From NCBI GenBank assembly GCA_000961805.1, contig LADV01000241.1:1-9220 (forward strand): a stretch of DNA of 9,220 bases. Reading direction: 5' to 3'. The stretch's first letter is position 1, and every line of letters begins with the position of its first letter. Source of the stretch: Peptococcaceae bacterium BRH_c23. GTDB lineage: Bacteria; Bacillota_B; Desulfitobacteriia; Desulfitobacteriales; Desulfitobacteriaceae. The notes below the pieces were generated by a model. That model was not told where the DNA came from. It did no database searches and worked only from the letters and a program-made list of their open reading frames with translations. Below, piece by piece: positions 1 through 8,821 of the stretch. The position numbers and the translations under genes were made by a program.

Positions 1-523
1 CTCTCTCGTTGAACCCTTGATCGAAGGGGGAACAGGAAGCGCATCAGAAAGTGTTCTTCAACTAACTTATATGCCAGATCGTTTTGAAGCAGGCACATTA
101 AACTTGCCAGGTATTTACGGGCTTAATGCTTCACTTAAATACATAATCGCGGAAGGCATTACTACTATTAGAGAAAAAGAGCTTAATCTTGTTCACAGGT
201 TTATTCAAAATGTGCAAACCATTCCTGGGGTTCAGCTCATTGGCCCCGACCAAAAACAAGACCGAACAGGGATTGCTTCTCTTAACTTTTTGAATCACGA
301 TAATGCGGAAGTTAGCTATCAATTGTTTAAGGACTTTGGAATCATGACTCGTTGCGGCCTTCATTGTGCTCCAGCAGCCCATCATACACTTGGTACGTTT
401 CCCCATGGAACAGTACGCTTTAGCTTTAGCTTTAGCTTTAGCTTTAGCTTTAGCTTTAGCTATTTTAATTCAAACCAGGATGTGGACTATGTCATTAATT
501 CATTAAATGAATGTAGCTACTAA
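1..523 (+). CDS. Class V aminotransferase / cysteine desulfurase family protein, C-terminal part
   Basis: This gene enters from the left edge and is read in frame from base 2; only about the last 173 residues are present. It resembles the C-terminal half of PLP-dependent cysteine desulfurase-like proteins of the NifS/SufS fold. Visible landmarks are the GGTGS turn, the RFEAGTLN segment, and the RCGLHCAP loop, whose HCAP cysteine matches the sulfur-accepting cysteine of SufS-type enzymes. The PLP-binding lysine lies upstream of the window. The family then normally ends with a strand like GTVRFSFSYFN. Here that strand is lengthened by seven FS dipeptides encoded by a perfect TTTAGC repeat, yet the reading frame stays open to a TAA and the normal tail (YFN...VDYVINSLNE) follows. 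The internal TTG at 17 is not the real start. The substrate (free cysteine, or something else) cannot be told. Family call is confident, exact role is not. Confidence 0.9.
   Translation, partial: SLVEPLIEGGTGSASESVLQLTYMPDRFEAGTLNLPGIYGLNASLKYIIAEGITTIREKELNLVHRFIQNVQTIPGVQLIGPDQKQDRTGIASLNFLNHDNAEVSYQLFKDFGIMTRCGLHCAPAAHHTLGTFPHGTVRFSFSFSFSFSFSFSYFNSNQDVDYVINSLNECSY
419..460 (+). repeat. In-frame hexanucleotide microsatellite (TTTAGC) x7
   Basis: Seven perfect tandem copies of TTTAGC lie inside the cysteine desulfurase gene and encode (Phe-Ser)x7 between VR and YFN. From memory of the family, relatives have about two Phe-Ser pairs here, so roughly five copies (ten residues) look extra. Because the unit is six bases, slippage changes protein length without shifting the frame. 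Confidence 0.97.
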
Positions 524-1979: not shown

Positions 1980-4900
1980 TTATTGAACTGCTACAAAGTC
2001 TGGAATAGCCGCGTCAATTTGACTCATGAGTTCTTCATGGGTATAGTGCTTTAGAGAAATAGCCCTTGTTGGACACTTTGCGTTACAGAGACCATCTCCC
2101 TTACAAAGAACAGGATTAACCACAGCCTTTCTGCCTTTTGGGGTATCATGAAACTCTATGGCACCATATGTACATGCTGCAATGCATGCTCCACACGAAA
2201 TACAGTTACTCTCATTCACCTCACAAACAGAGCCGGAGGCTACGACTGTATTATGGGAGAGAAGAGTCAAGACCCTACCTGCTGCTCCATAAGCCTGGCT
2301 AATTGTTTCCGATATATGCTTGGGATAGTGAGCTATCCCACACAGGTAAATGCCGTCTGTGCTAAAGTCAACCAGTCTTAGTTTGACATGGGCTTCTTGG
2401 AAGAAACCATCTAGACTCGTATTCACCTTGAATAACTTGGTTGCTTCCTGGCTTCCCGCTGACGGAATAACGGCAACAGCTAAAGATAGTGCATCCGCAG
2501 CTATTTCAAGCTTCTTACCTAACACTAGATCGGTCACGGTAACCCTTAAGACACTCCGGCCATCCTCCTCAATGGCTTCCACCTGAGGTTTATCCTGCGG
2601 CTCATAGCGGATGAACCTTACATCCTTACTTGCCGCTTCCCGGTAATAATCCTCTTTGTACCCATACGTTCTCATATCGCGGAATAGAATGTAGATATCC
2701 ATCTGGGGGTTTATCTCTTTAAGTTTCAAGGCATTTTTTATCGACTCGCTACAACATATCCGACTACAGTAATTTCTGTCTTCATTTCTGCAACCCACGC
2801 ATTGGATCATCACCAAACTCTCGGAGTTAAGCAGCCTTTCATCTCCTTTGGCGATTTGCTCCTCCAACTCCAAGTGGGTTATTACTCTATCATCTTCACC
2901 ATATAGGTACTCGGTGGGTTGGTATACTTCAGCACCTGTAGCGAGGATGGTTGCTCCATGGTTTATCTCTGCGACCCTTCCTTCAGACTTTACCTTGGTT
3001 ACGAAATTTCCCACAAAACCGCCAGTCTCAATGATGGAAGCATCAGTATAGACGTGGATTAAGCGGTGCTGATAAACCTTGCGTATGACATCTCGCAAAT
3101 ACCCTTGAACATCCATCCCTTCCAAGGTGTAATGGATTCTGCGAGCCATTCCCCCAATGACAGTATCCTTTTCCACTAGGTAGACCACATGTCCCTGGTT
3201 GGCTATGCTCAGAGCACTGGTCAGACCGGCGAAACCTCCTCCGACTACTAAGGCCGCCTTGTTGACGGGCAGATCAAATTCCTGCAAGGGCTCCAAACGG
3301 CAAGCTCGGGCTACCGACATCCGGACAATATCCTGTGCCTTTTGGGTGGCCTTCTCCTTTTCTTTGGAGTGGACCCAAGAGCAATGTTCTCTAATATTAG
3401 CCATGTCGTAATAATATTGGTTAATTCCCGCTTCCCGAAGCGTGTCTCGGAATAGCGGCTCATGTGTCCTAGGGGTACAGGCGGCGACTACCACGCGATT
3501 GAGCCCTTTTTCCCGGATCGATTTTGACAGTTTCGCAGCAGCCTCAGTAGAACATATAAAGAGGCTTTCTTCAGCGTAAACGACATTAGGTAACGTCAGT
3601 GCATATTCAACTGTAGAGGGGACATCGACTATTCTTCCGATATTCGCTCCACAATGACACACATAGACTCCTACCCTGGGCTCCTCTTCCGAGGTATCCC
3701 TTTCCGGTGGATATATCCTTTCTTTAGCCAGATTCCCACGCCGGTAGTCAAGGAGTTCACCACATTGGGAACCAGCCCCACTGGCAGTCATAACCGACTC
3801 GGGGATATCTACAGGGCCCTGGAAAGCTCCGCTTATGAAAATTCCAGGCCTAGTGGTCTCCATAGGATTAACAGGATTGGTTTTACAAAAGCCGTGAGAA
3901 TTGAGCTCAATACCGAACATATTTGCGATGCCCTTTGCATCAGCAGGAGGGTTCAATCCAACGGATAGAACCACCATATCAAATTCTTCCTCTTTAACTC
4001 CATGCTCTAATGTAGAATATCTTATTGTTACATTCTTGCTTCCCGAGATTTCTTTCCCTATTGATACATAGCTTCTGATAAATCGAATTCCGGGAAGTTT
4101 TTCTGTTCTTTGGTAGAATCGTTCGAAATCCTTGCCATAGGAACGAATATCGTTATGGAATATGGTACACTCGGCCTCATCATCATGGTCTTTGGTTAAA
4201 ATTACCTGTTTTTGGGTATACGTGCAACATACACCTGAACAATAGCTGTTACCGCCCGCAGGGTTAACCTGTCGCGAACCAACGCAGTGAATCCAAGCTA
4301 TTTTATGGGGATGCCTCTTGTCGGAAGCGCGAAGTATCTCACCTTCGTATGGCCCAGTGGCACATAATAGCCGTTCAAAGTCAAGACTGGTTACCACGTT
4401 CTCAAACTTGCCATAGCCATAGTCGTTCATTAACTTAGGATTAAATGGCTCAAAGCCCGAAGACAGAACGATCGCCCCAACGTTTACCTCTACCCTCTCT
4501 GCCGTTTGATTAAAATCTATGGCCTCAGACTTACAGACTGATTGGCAAATAGTACATTTCCTTTCTTTAAAGTAAAGGCAGCTTTCATCTATATAAGATA
4601 CAAGAGGAATTGCTTGAGCGAAGTATATATGGATGGCTTTATTCTTCGATATCTCTTGATTAAATTGATCAGGGGACATGACCGGGCAGTATTCAACACA
4701 GACAGTACAACCCGTGCATTTGCTCTCTATAACATATCTAGGCTTTTTAATCAGGGTTACCTTGAAGTCTCCCGCTTCCCCTACTACACTGTCAACTTCA
4801 GTATAGGTCATGATCTTAATATTGGGATGTCTGTTACACTCAGAAAACTTAGGCGATTCAATGCACATGGAGCAGTCATTCGTAGGAAAGGTCTTGTCAA

Positions 4901-5090
4901 GCTGGGACATCTTGCCGCCAATGGTCGGTGATTTCTCAACCATGTAAACCTTAAAACCTGCAGTGGCAAGATCAAGAGCAGCTTGAATACCGCTGATCCC
5001 TCCGCCGACAACCATTACATCTCCAAAATTGCTGCCTGCGAGACTTATAACAGGCTGTCCTTCAATCTTTCTTTCTGATTCTTTTTCCAT
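1980..5090 (-). CDS. hdrA: Double-module HdrA-like FAD/iron-sulfur oxidoreductase
   Basis: This 1036-residue protein contains two HdrA-type flavin modules. Module 1 has an FAD Rossmann motif (VVGGGISG, 27-34), the HdrA cysteine insert (C73, C76, C85) and a ferredoxin insert (C125, C128, C131, C135; C171, C179, C182, C186). Module 2 begins at about 472 with the HdrA N-terminal domain (VGVYVCHCGANIG). It then has a second Rossmann motif (VVGGGFAG, 615-622) and ends in a C-terminal two-cluster ferredoxin. That ferredoxin's first motif is complete (C963, C966, C969, C973), but in the second (C996, C1002, C1006) the expected second cysteine is Asp999. The layout recalls BamE- and QmoA/B-like proteins rather than the single-module methanogen HdrA. 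It is presumably a cytoplasmic electron-bifurcating or confurcating flavoprotein working with the downstream MvhD. HdrB and HdrC are absent here. The ATG has GGAG six bases upstream. Confidence 0.92.
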   Translation of the reverse strand: MEKESERKIEGQPVISLAGSNFGDVMVVGGGISGIQAALDLATAGFKVYMVEKSPTIGGKMSQLDKTFPTNDCSMCIESPKFSECNRHPNIKIMTYTEVDSVVGEAGDFKVTLIKKPRYVIESKCTGCTVCVEYCPVMSPDQFNQEISKNKAIHIYFAQAIPLVSYIDESCLYFKERKCTICQSVCKSEAIDFNQTAERVEVNVGAIVLSSGFEPFNPKLMNDYGYGKFENVVTSLDFERLLCATGPYEGEILRASDKRHPHKIAWIHCVGSRQVNPAGGNSYCSGVCCTYTQKQVILTKDHDDEAECTIFHNDIRSYGKDFERFYQRTEKLPGIRFIRSYVSIGKEISGSKNVTIRYSTLEHGVKEEEFDMVVLSVGLNPPADAKGIANMFGIELNSHGFCKTNPVNPMETTRPGIFISGAFQGPVDIPESVMTASGAGSQCGELLDYRRGNLAKERIYPPERDTSEEEPRVGVYVCHCGANIGRIVDVPSTVEYALTLPNVVYAEESLFICSTEAAAKLSKSIREKGLNRVVVAACTPRTHEPLFRDTLREAGINQYYYDMANIREHCSWVHSKEKEKATQKAQDIVRMSVARACRLEPLQEFDLPVNKAALVVGGGFAGLTSALSIANQGHVVYLVEKDTVIGGMARRIHYTLEGMDVQGYLRDVIRKVYQHRLIHVYTDASIIETGGFVGNFVTKVKSEGRVAEINHGATILATGAEVYQPTEYLYGEDDRVITHLELEEQIAKGDERLLNSESLVMIQCVGCRNEDRNYCSRICCSESIKNALKLKEINPQMDIYILFRDMRTYGYKEDYYREAASKDVRFIRYEPQDKPQVEAIEEDGRSVLRVTVTDLVLGKKLEIAADALSLAVAVIPSAGSQEATKLFKVNTSLDGFFQEAHVKLRLVDFSTDGIYLCGIAHYPKHISETISQAYGAAGRVLTLLSHNTVVASGSVCEVNESNCISCGACIAACTYGAIEFHDTPKGRKAVVNPVLCKGDGLCNAKCPTRAISLKHYTHEELMSQIDAAIPDFVAVQ

Positions 5091-5465: not shown

Positions 5466-5507
5466 AACGCTAAATACCACTGCAAGCTTGCAGTGGTATT
5501 TAGCGTT
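5466..5507. repeat. Perfect 42-bp palindrome
   Basis: Two 21-base arms (5466-5486 and 5487-5507) are exact reverse complements with no spacer, centred on AAGCTT. As RNA it would form a hairpin of about 19 bp with a four-base loop. No U tract follows it on either strand, so it is not a standard intrinsic terminator. It lies in the gap between the C_GCAxxG gene and hdrA. Confidence 0.9.
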
Positions 5508-5538: not shown

Positions 5539-5583
5539 TATTAAGTCGGTATTGCATCACAACGATGCAATACCGACTTAATA
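5539..5583. repeat. Second long inverted repeat, 20-bp arms with 5-base loop
   Basis: Arms 5539-5558 and 5564-5583 are perfect complements around the loop ACAAC (core AAGTCGGTATTGCATC). It is 31 bases from the neighbouring 42-bp palindrome and unrelated to it in sequence. No U tract flanks it on either strand. It could act as an RNA stabiliser, a transcription barrier downstream of the C_GCAxxG gene, or a protein or transposase target. Confidence 0.9.
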
Positions 5584-5684: not shown

Positions 5685-6158
5685 CTATAGTTCTACGGGT
5701 TGGATTCTTTTTTTAAGCGCTTCATCATCCAGCAATTTATTTGCTACCCAGGCCGCAACTTCTCCGGTGATTTTCACACAGTGCGCTTTTCGTTCCGGAG
5801 AGTCAAAGATTAAATCTTTAGTAATCACTCGACAACAAGTACTCTTATATGTTTTTTTGATATGGTCATGAAGTTCCGCCGCGACAGGAAACATTCTACT
5901 GTTCATGGCATTGCCAGGATCCCTGCCGTAAACTATCCCTAAGGCCATTACTCCACCACTGATAGCTCCACAAACACACCCAGATCTACCGATTCCGACC
6001 GGGAAACCGGAGGCCAATCGGACAATTGAAGTATCCAAGGGCCAGCCAAGAAATTCATTGAGGGTATGAACAACGGCCTCGGAACAATAAAACTCGCCTC
6101 TTTGGAAACACCCTCCAGCCTTTGTTCTTACATCGGCAATGATTTTTTCTCTTCCCAT
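5685..6158 (-). CDS. C_GCAxxG_C_C family redox protein
   Basis: This 157-residue protein matches the C_GCAxxG_C_C family of putative redox-active proteins, defined by four conserved cysteines and a CGAxxG motif. They are visible as C25 (YCSEAV), C63 in CGAISG, C108/C109 (TCCRV) and C127 (HCVKITGE). Length is normal for the family and no signal peptide or membrane helix is seen, so it should be cytoplasmic. The biochemical role of the family is not established; a metal- or cluster-binding or disulfide function is inferred. The start ATG has a strong GGGAGGAG seven bases upstream. It lies 92 bases after the activase gene, behind a hairpin, with a possible -10 (TATACT) of its own. It may therefore be expressed both with and apart from the reductase operon. 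Confidence 0.85.
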   Translation of the reverse strand: MGREKIIADVRTKAGGCFQRGEFYCSEAVVHTLNEFLGWPLDTSIVRLASGFPVGIGRSGCVCGAISGGVMALGIVYGRDPGNAMNSRMFPVAAELHDHIKKTYKSTCCRVITKDLIFDSPERKAHCVKITGEVAAWVANKLLDDEALKKRIQPVEL

Positions 6159-6185
6159 AATAACGCTCCTCCCAGATTGTAGCTA

Positions 6186-6191
6186 AGTATA
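6186..6191 (-). promoter_or_regulatory. Possible -10 box for the C_GCAxxG gene
   Basis: TATACT on the - strand lies 27 bases before the start codon, after the upstream hairpin. No good -35 is found at 16-18 bases, so promoter activity is uncertain. Confidence 0.25.
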
Positions 6192-6211
6192 CAGTTATGT
6201 GCATTTAACAG

Positions 6212-6241
6212 ATGGCACTTGCCAACTCAAGCAAGTGCCAT
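6212..6241 (-). terminator. Hairpin between activase and C_GCAxxG genes
   Basis: Perfect 11-bp arms ATGGCACTTGC and GCAAGTGCCAT enclose an 8-base loop, ten bases after the activase stop codon. On the - strand the hairpin is followed by CTGTTAAATG, not a clear U run. It may be a weak or partial terminator that lowers expression of the next gene, or an RNA 3'-end stabiliser. Confidence 0.5.
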
Positions 6242-6250
6242 TCATAGTTC

Positions 6251-6991
6251 TTATGCGAGTAAGGCTGCACCCAAGGCAGCTGTTAATTCGGGTTCCGGCG
6301 GGATCACAACGTCCCCCTTTAACTCTCGTTGGAGGAAGTAGACAAGAAGGCTGTAATATGCGCCTCCTCCGGTAAATATCAAAGATTCCGGATGTCCGAC
6401 AGACTCAACAAAATTAGCAAGACGTTTTGCCGTACTTTTGAAAAGGCCCGCAATGACTTCAGGTTTGGGGATCCCTTTAGCAAGCATCGTGATAACTTCT
6501 GATTCAGCAAACACTGTACACATGGAATTGATAGGCATTGGCTTAGCATCTGCAGCTAAATTCAGTTCCTCAGTCGTTAGATCTAAGCCCTTCAGGATAA
6601 CATCTAAAAAACGCCCGGTCCCGGCAGCACACTTGTCATTCATGATAAACTGAACAACTTTTCCCTCGGCGTTCTTCCTAATAACCTTAGCGTCTTGCCC
6701 CCCTAAGTCAAGAATGTAGGCATTATCCGGGAAATAGGCATGACACCCTCTACTCTGACAGGTGATTTCCGTAATCACCCGTCCTTCGGGAAAGTTTACC
6801 CGTCCATACCCTGTAACAACGAGTTTTTCGGGTTTTTCTCCATGTTCTTTGAGGTAGGACTTAAGTAAGGTGATACCCGCTTGCACGGAATCAAAACGGG
6901 AGGGTACGACTTGGCTAAATAGTCGTTCCCCGTTTTCTAACACGACCAACTTTGTATTAACCGAGCCAAGATCTAACCCCGCTTGCCTCAT
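6251..6991 (-). CDS. 2-hydroxyacyl-CoA dehydratase activase-type ATPase (DCCP reductase, YjiL-like)
   Basis: This 246-residue ASKHA-fold ATPase belongs to the BcrA/BadF/HgdC family. It has phosphate-1 motif GLDLGSVNTK (5-14), DLGGQDAK (95-102), and GGG (208-210) for nucleotide binding. C121 (NDKCAAGTGRF) and C158 (NSMCTVFAE) are the cysteines that hold the dimer-bridging [4Fe-4S] cluster in HgdC. Such proteins couple ATP hydrolysis to one-electron transfer at very low potential into a partner. The gene overlaps the reductase gene by ATGA, so the two are translationally coupled and the partner is almost surely the double-cubane protein. No separate ribosome binding site is evident, as expected for coupling. 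The electron donor is probably ferredoxin or flavodoxin; none is encoded here. Length is typical of the short activases. Confidence 0.94.
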   Translation of the reverse strand: MRQAGLDLGSVNTKLVVLENGERLFSQVVPSRFDSVQAGITLLKSYLKEHGEKPEKLVVTGYGRVNFPEGRVITEITCQSRGCHAYFPDNAYILDLGGQDAKVIRKNAEGKVVQFIMNDKCAAGTGRFLDVILKGLDLTTEELNLAADAKPMPINSMCTVFAESEVITMLAKGIPKPEVIAGLFKSTAKRLANFVESVGHPESLIFTGGGAYYSLLVYFLQRELKGDVVIPPEPELTAALGAALLA

Positions 6992-8256
6992 GCACGAATC
7001 ATCTCGATTAAAGCCTCAATCCGGGTTAAAAGTTGCCCCTGATCTTCATCAGAAAAATCACTTTCCAGGCGCAGGTAGGGAATCATTTTCTTCTCCATTT
7101 CTTTGCCCACAAAATAACTTTCTACACCATAGGTCTGACAGAACTGAAGCGTAAAATCAATCACAGCATCTGCTTTTAAATGTTCCGCCATGAAAGATAT
7201 ATCTTCCATGCGCCCTTGATTCGGGGTAAAGCAGGCACAATTCACCTTTAAGGGGCGCTTAGCAATATTAGCGAGCATATCCGATACACTATCTGCTGGC
7301 TCGGTGACATCCTTATAATAGCGTTCTCCTGTACAGGTTTCTTCCCCGACAACGACAGCCCCAGCTTGTTCGATTAAGGCATGAAGTTTCCAAGCTGGAA
7401 GCGGTTGCGGTGTCCCTGTTACCAGAATCCTTGGTGCATCGGCAGGAGCGACTCCGAACCCCTCTTTGACCCGTACATCAAGTTCGTCACACAAAGCATT
7501 GACTTGAGCCGCGAAGCGAACCGGATCGTCAAAGAAGGACAGTTGATTGATTAAGAGGACATCTAAGCCGTGAATAGGAGCTGGATTATGTTTTCTTAAG
7601 TTAGCTAACCTTTGGAGGGCTAAGCGTTTATTATTGATCACCTGAATCCCGTGAGCAAGATTCTCGGCGGTTAAATCCACCTTGGTCTCGCGTTCAATAA
7701 AGGAAGCAAACTCACGCACTTCTTCTTCCCAGAGACGGGCATCCTTGGCGTCTTTCTTTTGCGGGAGGTCCATCACATAGGTAGGAATATGTTCGTTTAG
7801 GATCTCCCAGGCCTTCTTCTTCCCGTCACAGGTCGTCTCCCCGATGACCCAATCCGAAACTTGGAAATACGGGCAAATCCGGTCTAATTTAAAGCCCATG
7901 GTTGATTTAATCAATGGGCAGAGATTACGAGGCAAGACTTTTTCCCCCGAAGAAACTGTATACTGGGCTCCAGCACATAAGCCGATGCTTACACTTCCAG
8001 TCGCAACAACAATTTCTTCCGGAACATAGACGCAAAAGGTCGAAAACACCTTAGCTCCCGCTTCTCTCTTAGCATAGAGTTCATGCACACGAATCCCATG
8101 CACATCTCCGACTACTGCATCAAAATACCCCATCGCTGCAGGGCGATTGGGTCGATCCAAAAACAAGCTCGTAAAAATCGCTGGTACAGGGGCTAAAAAA
8201 TCATCATGTTTCTCTAAATCCATTCCTAGGGCTGTCCATAACTCTCTGTTATCCAT
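6988..8256 (-). CDS. Double-cubane-cluster-containing anaerobic reductase (DCCP, YjiM-like)
   Basis: The 422-residue product belongs to the 2-hydroxyacyl-CoA dehydratase D-component superfamily. It matches the YjiM/double-cubane branch in motif order: FCVYVPEE (C75), GLC (C94), PRNLCPLIKS (C113), CPYF (C128), GETTCDGKKK (C143), EETCTGE (C308), NCAC (C340, C342) and QFCQTYGVES (C373). Members characterised in Carboxydothermus hold an [8Fe-9S] double-cubane cluster and reduce small molecules such as acetylene when driven by an ATP-dependent reductase; the physiological substrate is unknown. A homodimer is expected, since no second dehydratase subunit is encoded. I chose ATG at 8254-8256 because GGGGAGG (8265-8271) lies eight bases before it. 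The GTG at 8278-8280 would place that site inside the gene. It lies 46 bases after the dsrE-like gene and overlaps the activase. Confidence 0.93.
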   Translation of the reverse strand: MDNRELWTALGMDLEKHDDFLAPVPAIFTSLFLDRPNRPAAMGYFDAVVGDVHGIRVHELYAKREAGAKVFSTFCVYVPEEIVVATGSVSIGLCAGAQYTVSSGEKVLPRNLCPLIKSTMGFKLDRICPYFQVSDWVIGETTCDGKKKAWEILNEHIPTYVMDLPQKKDAKDARLWEEEVREFASFIERETKVDLTAENLAHGIQVINNKRLALQRLANLRKHNPAPIHGLDVLLINQLSFFDDPVRFAAQVNALCDELDVRVKEGFGVAPADAPRILVTGTPQPLPAWKLHALIEQAGAVVVGEETCTGERYYKDVTEPADSVSDMLANIAKRPLKVNCACFTPNQGRMEDISFMAEHLKADAVIDFTLQFCQTYGVESYFVGKEMEKKMIPYLRLESDFSDEDQGQLLTRIEALIEMIRA

Positions 8257-8264
8257 TCTTTTAT

Positions 8265-8271
8265 CCTCCCC
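8265..8271 (-). promoter_or_regulatory. Ribosome binding site deciding the DCCP start
   Basis: GGGGAGG on the - strand is eight bases before ATG 8254-8256. It would be internal if the upstream GTG at 8278-8280 were used, so it supports the shorter 422-residue protein. Confidence 0.8.
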
Positions 8272-8302
8272 GTTTCTCACAATTCGCTTACATTTATGGA
8301 TC

Positions 8303-8641
8303 TTAGATATGTATCACTTTATCGCTTTCATGCATAACCGTGATGATCTCAGGCATAGTGGAAACCTCTCCAACCTCGATTTTATCCTTGATACCGTAAT
8401 AATCCAGACAGGTCACACAGGCTAACAGAGTTACGCCCGATTCCTCTGCTAAAATCTTCAGAGCATCGACTGCGGAAAATTCGGGTAACAAAAGCTGCAC
8501 CCCTTTTTCCAGAAAAAGAATATGGGACGGTTTCTCAGCCGCCTGCAAGAGCTTCAAAAAGAAACTGTGCATTAGGCGTTTGCCCAGTTCAGGGTCTTGA
8601 TGACCAATGGTATCTGAGCTGATAAAGTAGGCAAAGGACAT
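8303..8641 (-). CDS. DsrE-family protein resembling the YedF C-terminal domain
   Basis: This 112-residue single-domain protein has the DsrE/TusD-like pattern: a first strand and loop FISSDTIGHQDPELGKRLM, then ILFLEKGVQLL, and a cysteine loop ACVTCLDYYGIKDK (C75, C78). It is closest to the C-terminal half of YedF, a protein linked to selenium metabolism. It lacks YedF's N-terminal TusA-like domain, and no selD or other selenium gene is in the window. The cysteine of the TCLDY motif may bind a persulfide or a metal; that is inferred from the fold. A strong GGGGGGAG site lies six bases before the ATG. It is the first gene of the operon with the double-cubane reductase, 46 bases upstream of it, which suggests a role in sulfur or redox handling for that system. 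Confidence 0.87.
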   Translation of the reverse strand: MSFAYFISSDTIGHQDPELGKRLMHSFFLKLLQAAEKPSHILFLEKGVQLLLPEFSAVDALKILAEESGVTLLACVTCLDYYGIKDKIEVGEVSTMPEIITVMHESDKVIHI

Positions 8642-8756
8642 TGAATTCTCCCCCCATTATAATTATTATGTTATTATATATTATCACTAAATTAATATGT
8701 TTTAAAGGGCTAACTTTAACAAAATGATTGTCTCTTAGTTTATCAAATTCAATAGA
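8642..8756 (-). promoter_or_regulatory. Likely promoter region of the dsrE-DCCP-activase operon (3' exon of the intron)
   Basis: These 115 bases between the intron end and the dsrE-like gene are very AT-rich and hold no gene. On the - strand a loose promoter can be drawn (TTGTTA, 17 bases, CATATT), and TATAAT occurs twice nearer the gene, without a good -35. The exact promoter cannot be fixed. Transcription from the intron could also read in. Confidence 0.35.
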
Positions 8757-8816
8757 GTAGGGGCGATTACTCGCCCCTCTCACGGAACCGTGCATGCGGA
8801 CCATCGCACACGGCTC
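8757..8816 (-). ncRNA. Group II intron domains V and VI
   Basis: Domain V spans 8785-8816. GAGCCGTG pairs with CACGGTTC, there is a two-base bulge (TG), an upper stem TGCG/CGCA, and a short loop. The AGC catalytic triad is present at its 5' side. Domain VI follows at about 8759-8778 as an eight-base-pair stem (AGGGGCGA with TCGCCCCT) capped by GTAA. No bulged adenosine is seen on the 3' side of that stem. The intron then ends in TAC. Confidence 0.85.
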
Positions 8817-8821
8817 TTCCA

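Follow-up and report, generated by a model that had tools for sequence, protein, structure and literature searches.

A stretch of 9,220 nt of contig LADV01000241.1 from Peptococcaceae bacterium BRH_c23 (the window) carries, in the part studied here (5685–8641), four genes on the minus strand. They encode a DsrE-domain protein (8303–8641), a double-cubane cluster protein (DCCP; 6988–8256), the activase or DCCP reductase, an ATPase (6251–6991), and a C_GCAxxG_C_C protein (5685–6158). An earlier note on this DNA had predicted these genes, and family scans agreed with it on their existence and positions. It had described a DsrE-DCCP-activase operon followed by the C_GCAxxG gene; DsrE, DCCP and activase do form a tight operon, and the C_GCAxxG gene starts 92 nt further on, past a conserved hairpin, so that its co-transcription with activase is uncertain. 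In a search of a genome collection, the nearest relatives of the locus were found in Desulfosporosinus, with DCCP identity of up to 94%. Loci and genomes of the surveys are designated L and G, respectively.

The DCCP has 422 aa and reaches 478.7 bits with NF040772, above the curated cut-off of 350. Its open reading frame was listed from a GTG at 8280, but the ATG at 8256, behind the Shine-Dalgarno sequence GGGGAGG and 46 nt after the DsrE stop codon, is preferred because the 422-aa form matches the start of the solved chain 7yyl_C. The alignment with this chain is nearly full length (717.8 bits), and all ten cysteines of the window protein align with cysteines. The activase (246 aa), the gene of which overlaps that of DCCP by 4 bp, scores 204.4 bits with TIGR00241 (cut-off 125.4) and 299.9 bits with 7yyl_E, again over nearly the full length. 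PDB entries 6eno and 7yyl are the DCCP and DCCP reductase of Carboxydothermus hydrogenoformans, and this close homology predicts that the window pair is an ATP-driven low-potential reductase, as has been published for the Carboxydothermus proteins. The window differs from the Carboxydothermus pair in that its own pair stands between an upstream DsrE gene and a downstream C_GCAxxG gene; at the related C. islandicus locus (L022) no C_GCAxxG gene was found downstream, and the upstream side covers only 296 bp. Two forms of DCCP were seen, one of about 390 aa and one of about 422–430 aa with an N-terminal extension, to which the window protein belongs; it is 40% identical to the DCCP of L162. The DCCP of L010 (D. 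acididurans) has no activase match within the fetched locus.

The DsrE protein (112 aa) exceeds the gathering cut-off of PF02635 (38.5 bits; cut-off 22.7). With the YedF model TIGR03527 it reaches 104.9 bits, just below the cut-off of 110, and covers only model positions 88–194; the TusA/SirA-like N-terminal domain of YedF (PF01206) was not found in it by the family scan. Judged by its sequence, it is the C-terminal half of YedF, a selenium protein, and lacks the TusA half. It shares with YedF the DsrE half and the CxxC motif, here CVTC, both cysteines of which (Cys75, Cys78) are kept throughout an alignment of 16 sequences that includes five full-length YedF proteins; identity to these five is 34–39%. 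Sequence searches of solved structures with the DsrE protein and with the C_GCAxxG protein gave nothing convincing.

Recurrence of these genes was followed in two surveys. The first covered the 80 closest DCCP loci, namely 28 with DCCP identity of at least 70% (L001–L028) and 52 with 50–61%. Of the 28, L014, L022 and L026 cover under 300 bp upstream, and the sequences of L017 and L028 break off within DCCP. The second covered 84 DCCP loci, comprising 52 from the class of the L001 genome, 19 from Clostridia (class of the L035 genome) and 13 from Chloroflexota (phylum of the L036 genome); many of the 52 class loci are from genomes already among the first 80 loci. Some of its stretches are shortened by contig ends, and G051, G067 and the below-cut-off matches of G017 and G019 were excluded. 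It was scanned with profiles made from few seeds per family, and one SelD seed contained its in-frame stop.

A YedF-type DsrE domain lies near DCCP in 30 of the 84 loci and in all three taxonomic samples (16/52 class, 3/19 Clostridia, 11/13 Chloroflexota), so that the partner recurs beyond BRH_c23, as the earlier note had supposed it might. The 16 class loci have either DsrE alone (12, one being the split copy of L009) or YedF (four). The domain is encoded on the DCCP strand in 28 of the 30 loci, L201 and L240 being the exceptions. In Chloroflexota, the order DCCP-activase-YedF is found in 11 of the 13 loci; L036 has SelD, SclA, DCCP, activase and YedF in this order on one strand. YedF, SelD and DCCP are consecutive in L239 and L245. 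One genome, G059, has both DsrE and YedF, near DCCP or elsewhere. The chance that the neighbourhood would be confined to this genome, which the earlier note had raised, does not apply to DsrE-DCCP-activase; the full set with C_GCAxxG was found only in the window and L001, the latter being the single case (L223, the same locus) among the 84.

Among the 28 closest loci, an intact DsrE gene precedes DCCP in eight (L001, L002, L005, L006, L018, L020, L021, L028), whereas L009 has a split copy and L017 a remnant. This low count fits the idea that the Desulfosporosinus adjacency is mostly inherited synteny, with an old DsrE gene next to clpC-radA and an uncoupled DCCP-activase pair beside it; ClpB/ClpC-type and radA genes do stand before the operon in several loci, and radA-DsrE is retained in G047, which lacks DCCP. 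Yet DCCP-activase-DsrE, in reversed order, occurs at another locus in L145, the fetched flanks of L018 and L021 have DsrE upstream of DCCP and no radA-cluster gene, and most Chloroflexota loci (11 of 13) have DCCP-activase-YedF. Synteny as the main cause is quite unlikely.

Other selenium- or sulfur-related genes also surround DCCP. In the 52 more distant loci of the first survey, a gene for DUF3343, a selenium/sulfur carrier, follows DCCP within 1.2 kb in 38 and an SclA-type gene is present within about 3 kb in 23. L042 (Clostridium ljungdahlii) has a DCCP-DUF3343-activase set. A Csd-SelD-YedF cassette lies downstream of the DCCP operon in L003, L004, L007 and L027. The regions of the second survey contain DUF3343 in 10/52 class, 11/19 Clostridia and 2/13 Chloroflexota loci, and at least one of DsrE/YedF, TusA, DUF3343, SclA, SelD and YedE is encoded within 3 kb of DCCP in 18/52, 15/19 and 11/13, respectively. 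SelD, SclA, YedE and DUF3343 near DCCP loci uphold the suggestion of the earlier note that the neighbourhood points to selenium or sulfur chemistry. SelD itself comes in two kinds (L003, L007, L027 and other genomes), one carrying an in-frame TGA and a second that has none and lies beside YedF and a Csd gene.

At the level of whole genomes, a DCCP above the cut-off is encoded by 42 of the 62 sampled from the class of L001, 16 of 147 Clostridia and 13 of 251 Chloroflexota. In the class of L001, a YedF-type DsrE domain was present in all 42 DCCP genomes (G017 with 82.7 bits) vs 5 of the 20 DCCP-negative genomes, two of these five being weak and the TusA-only matches of G064 and G069 not counted; in Clostridia the counts were 16/16 with DCCP vs 21/131 without. 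SelD was found in 40/42 DCCP genomes vs 11/20 others in the class, and in 16/16 vs 21/131 in Clostridia. Given SelD, DsrE/YedF still tracks DCCP in the class of L001 (40/40 vs 5/11, p 3e-5). In a control panel of 14 genomes, the only two with a DCCP match, E. coli and M. jannaschii, are also the only two with SelD. Gene identities, recurrence and co-occurrence are direct observations. A carrier-type partner in every DCCP genome of two classes (42/42, 16/16), adjoining DCCP in part of the loci, narrows the search for the DCCP substrate to compounds of selenium or sulfur, where otherwise any small molecule would have to be considered.

Two simpler roles of the free DsrE protein were considered. 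DsrE as a substitute for YedF in genomes that do not use selenium was ruled out, SelD being present in 35/36 genomes and a SelB-like protein in 36/36 (34 above cut-off) for both kinds of genome. A split YedF, in which DsrE would always be paired with the free TusA of a YedE operon, fits only partly. DsrE and free TusA are both present in G001, G006, G017 and G047, but G002, G005, G020 and G021 have no TusA-only match at the threshold used, and the YedE-TusA cluster is also found in several genomes that carry a full YedF.

The C_GCAxxG protein (157 aa) scores 101.4 bits with PF09719 (cut-off 27) and 87.7 bits with TIGR01909 (cut-off 47.4). It had been described as a four-cysteine protein, but six cysteines (25, 61, 63, 108, 109, 127) are invariant in nine aligned sequences, the window included. 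A model of its fold built from nine sequences has a mean pLDDT of 80, and its best PDB match has E 0.7, with none at or below 0.001. As a neighbour of DCCP the protein recurs weakly, and here the survey proposed in the earlier note, which favoured DsrE/YedF, did not favour the second partner. The gene follows activase in 4 of the 28 closest loci (L001, L007, L023, L027; remnant in L005), the L007 copy being frameshifted; the in-frame TGA of this copy was rejected as a selenocysteine codon, as it arises from the frameshift near the gene start. The second survey found C_GCAxxG in 4/52 class, 0/19 Clostridia and 0/13 Chloroflexota regions, hence 4/84, and in the same four genomes; a fifth lies about 480 bp past the fetched end of L184 and is visible in L162. 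Nine genomes have an orthologue of 78–90% identity, which adjoins DCCP in only four; in G041, G009 and G010 (78–79%) it stands away from both DCCP and YedE-cluster settings, as far as these were fetched. The gene was gained and lost among relatives.

These counts also bear on the proposal of the earlier note that the small proteins mature the [8Fe-9S] cluster of DCCP. Proximity is the one point in favour of DsrE and/or C_GCAxxG as maturation factors, and the proposal is unsupported because many DCCP genes have neither neighbour; in the class sample, DsrE/YedF is found in 16/52 and C_GCAxxG in 4/52 regions, and most loci lack both. Carboxydothermus DCCP produced recombinantly reportedly carried its cluster. 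Such a role is very improbable.

In the gap between activase and C_GCAxxG, the stop codon of the former is followed by a hairpin of 13 pairs (6211–6242). In 11 aligned sequences (window, L001–L008, L023, L027), 96.5% of the cells are paired, four pairs are changed on both sides, and 0 of 500 shuffles scored as high; the sequences were chosen for a stem visible by eye, and the shuffle control leaves relatedness in. The hairpin is also present in L014, which was excluded from the alignment, and the remaining loci examined lack the same stem. It has no clear T tract on the transcribed strand. Since it is kept in L002 and L006, where no C_GCAxxG gene comes after, the window C_GCAxxG gene lies beyond what is probably a transcript-end structure. 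A weak promoter-like match was seen in the same gap (minus strand, 6203–6176). Two perfect inverted repeats after C_GCAxxG (5466–5507 and 5539–5583), with counterpart sequence in L001 and L002, are a possible operon end.

The other end of the window carries the 3′ end of a gene for an SclA/EF2568-type cysteine desulfurase or selenocysteine lyase (17–523, plus strand), cut by the window edge; its 168 aa inside the window score 160.7 bits with TIGR01977 (full-length cut-off 377). At the DNA level the fragment is 86–91% identical to the last gene, of the SclA type, of the YedE-TusA-DUF3343-SclA clusters in L161 and L162, and because of this likeness YedE-TusA-DUF3343 would be expected just outside the window in the same genome. 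The same order was found in eight more loci (L262–L269, seven of which come from genomes already represented among the first 28 loci; in L262, YedE is divided between two frames), related clusters in L271–L274, and TusA alone in L270. YedE neighbours score 523 and 475 bits with TIGR04112 (cut-off 200). Within the SclA-type fragment, 7.5 perfect copies of a 6-bp unit (417–461) lengthen the C-terminal RFSFS to an FS repeat, where L161 has only RFSFSHFN.

The C_GCAxxG protein is linked to these clusters as well. In L161 the SclA-type gene is directly followed by a C_GCAxxG gene, the product of which is 87% identical to that of the window; in L162 one of 90% identity comes after the SclA-type gene, a TudS-related gene and an ECF transporter. 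L033 (Halanaerobium) has in one run DCCP, ECF-type, TudS-like, C_GCAxxG (56% identical in the alignment), SLAC1/TDT-type transporter, YedF and a second DCCP. The sequences suggest that C_GCAxxG belongs to a selenium gene pool as an optional member. In both L162 and L033 a TudS-related desulfidase and an ECF transporter S component thus stand beside DCCP, SclA or YedF, and C_GCAxxG; this set is possibly an uptake and desulfidation/deselenation module.

About 600 bp beyond C_GCAxxG, the window contains a pair of minus-strand genes for an HdrA-like flavin/Fe-S protein (1036 aa; 1980–5090), which matches the HdrA2 family NF040770 with 945.6 bits, below the cut-off of 1100, and for an FlpD/MvhD protein with a C-terminal ArsR-type helix-turn-helix (1172–1939; PF02662 164.9 bits, PF01022 30.8 bits). 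The window HdrA-FlpD is a possible electron donor because HdrA and FlpD directly follow DCCP-activase in L029. This locus, of a metagenome-assembled genome, is the only such case seen and has DCCP-activase-HdrA-FlpD-YedE-TusA-DUF3343 as a tight run of overlapping or nearly touching genes. The FlpD of L029 has only 149 aa.

Taken as a whole, the window may be a selenium-handling island of a Desulfosporosinus-like bacterium, in which DCCP-activase would be a reductase of selenium (or sulfur) salvage and DsrE a chalcogen carrier; we assign this reading a probability of roughly 0.5. Its substrate, carrier relay and electron donor are what we infer. DCCP and activase would reduce or cleave a refractory selenium compound (a sulfur compound being less likely) and make the chalcogen usable. 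DsrE, the YedF C-terminal domain with the invariant CxxC, would accept or present the chalcogen as a persulfide or perselenide and pass it along a carrier relay (TusA, DUF3343) towards SelD. C_GCAxxG, from the same pool of selenium genes, would have an accessory redox role, and HdrA-FlpD may feed low-potential electrons. A stronger version, rather doubtful but conceivable, would have selenide freed from an organic or inert selenium compound by reductive cleavage, YedF/DsrE receiving the selenium, HdrA-FlpD giving the electrons, and L029 representing the whole pathway in one operon. As in the related TudS enzymes, where an Fe-S cluster picks up sulfur, the [8Fe-9S] cluster would perhaps take up the chalcogen where its bridging sulfide sits.

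Several observations weigh against the selenium-salvage reading. Full YedF is present in 11 of the 28 closest genomes and none of these has an intact DsrE beside DCCP, so DsrE is replaceable. G047 retains DsrE and the YedE cluster without a DCCP match. At E 1e-18 neither E. coli nor M. jannaschii, both with DCCP, gives a YedF-type match (relaxing the limit to 1e-8 adds one for M. jannaschii alone, below the cut-off), and the DsrE partner is therefore not universal. FlpD had no match at the 84 surveyed loci, and HdrA only weak ones (E 4e-9 or weaker; L198, L240). YedF goes with SelD in Clostridia, where DCCP genomes show no significant excess of it once SelD is accounted for (16/16 vs 18/21, p 0.24). 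In addition, the co-occurrence counts and tests take no account of phylogeny, and the genomes behind the Chloroflexota loci may be closely related.

Two further results are adverse to it and speak for sulfur: SelD is not enriched with DCCP in Chloroflexota (12/13 vs 193/238, p 0.47), and two DCCP genomes of the class of L001 (G019, G073) have no SelD match. DCCP would then act on a sulfur compound or another small molecule and DsrE would pass sulfur, selenium genes being nearby since sulfur and selenium carriers are interchangeable. DsrE and TusA families are generally sulfur carriers, and Desulfosporosinus are sulfate reducers. Against this explanation, which we regard as unlikely, the neighbours are of the selenium type (YedE well above the TIGR04112 cut-off, SelD, SclA-type lyase, DUF3343), and nearly all DCCP genomes of the class and all of those in Clostridia have SelD.

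A provisional selenium link of DCCP is already in print. In the passages concerned, a 2023 preprint ties the dicubane cluster protein provisionally to selenium metabolism and has it, with its reductase, among putative selenium genes of type I MGC clusters (PMC10418091). The window differs from the clusters in these passages in that none of its eight scanned proteins is a corrinoid methyltransferase. The selenium cluster of Slackia heliotrinireducens, as tabulated, has YedE, YedF, DUF3343, a Sec lyase, SelD, a CoA-substrate-specific activase and a 2-hydroxyglutaryl-CoA dehydratase subunit (PMC5322559). The same gene families are thus linked to one another; in that table the activase and dehydratase are only STRING neighbours, whereas in the window DsrE is split from TusA, and C_GCAxxG and HdrA-FlpD stand alongside. 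DCCP reduces acetylene, hydrazine and azide, the physiological relevance of which is deemed unclear in the relevant part of a 2025 paper, and the family partly includes thiouridine-monophosphate desulfidase (PMC11971306). Selenocysteine-containing members occur in both DsrE-like and C_GCAxxG families in an excerpted list of known selenoproteins (PMC9312934), which is consistent with redox work on selenium and is no proof here. Among the listings and passages returned by the literature search, no paper was recognised as describing a DCCP-activase-YedF operon. New, as far as seen there, are the free DsrE half at the head of a DCCP operon, the counts of the DCCP-activase-YedF order in Chloroflexota, the co-occurrence in all DCCP genomes of two sampled classes, the operon of L029 and the C_GCAxxG orthologues in YedE clusters.

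Upstream of DsrE, the DNA similarity between the window and L001 ends near 8716, and the 3′ end of a group II intron (8752–8818), with the C-terminal part of its maturase reaching 9163, has its edge about 110 nt from the DsrE gene. Molybdenum hydroxylase genes, not counted as a conserved DCCP partner and only 33–35% identical between two groups of loci, flank the operon on different sides in L002, L007 and L027 and in L020 and L021.

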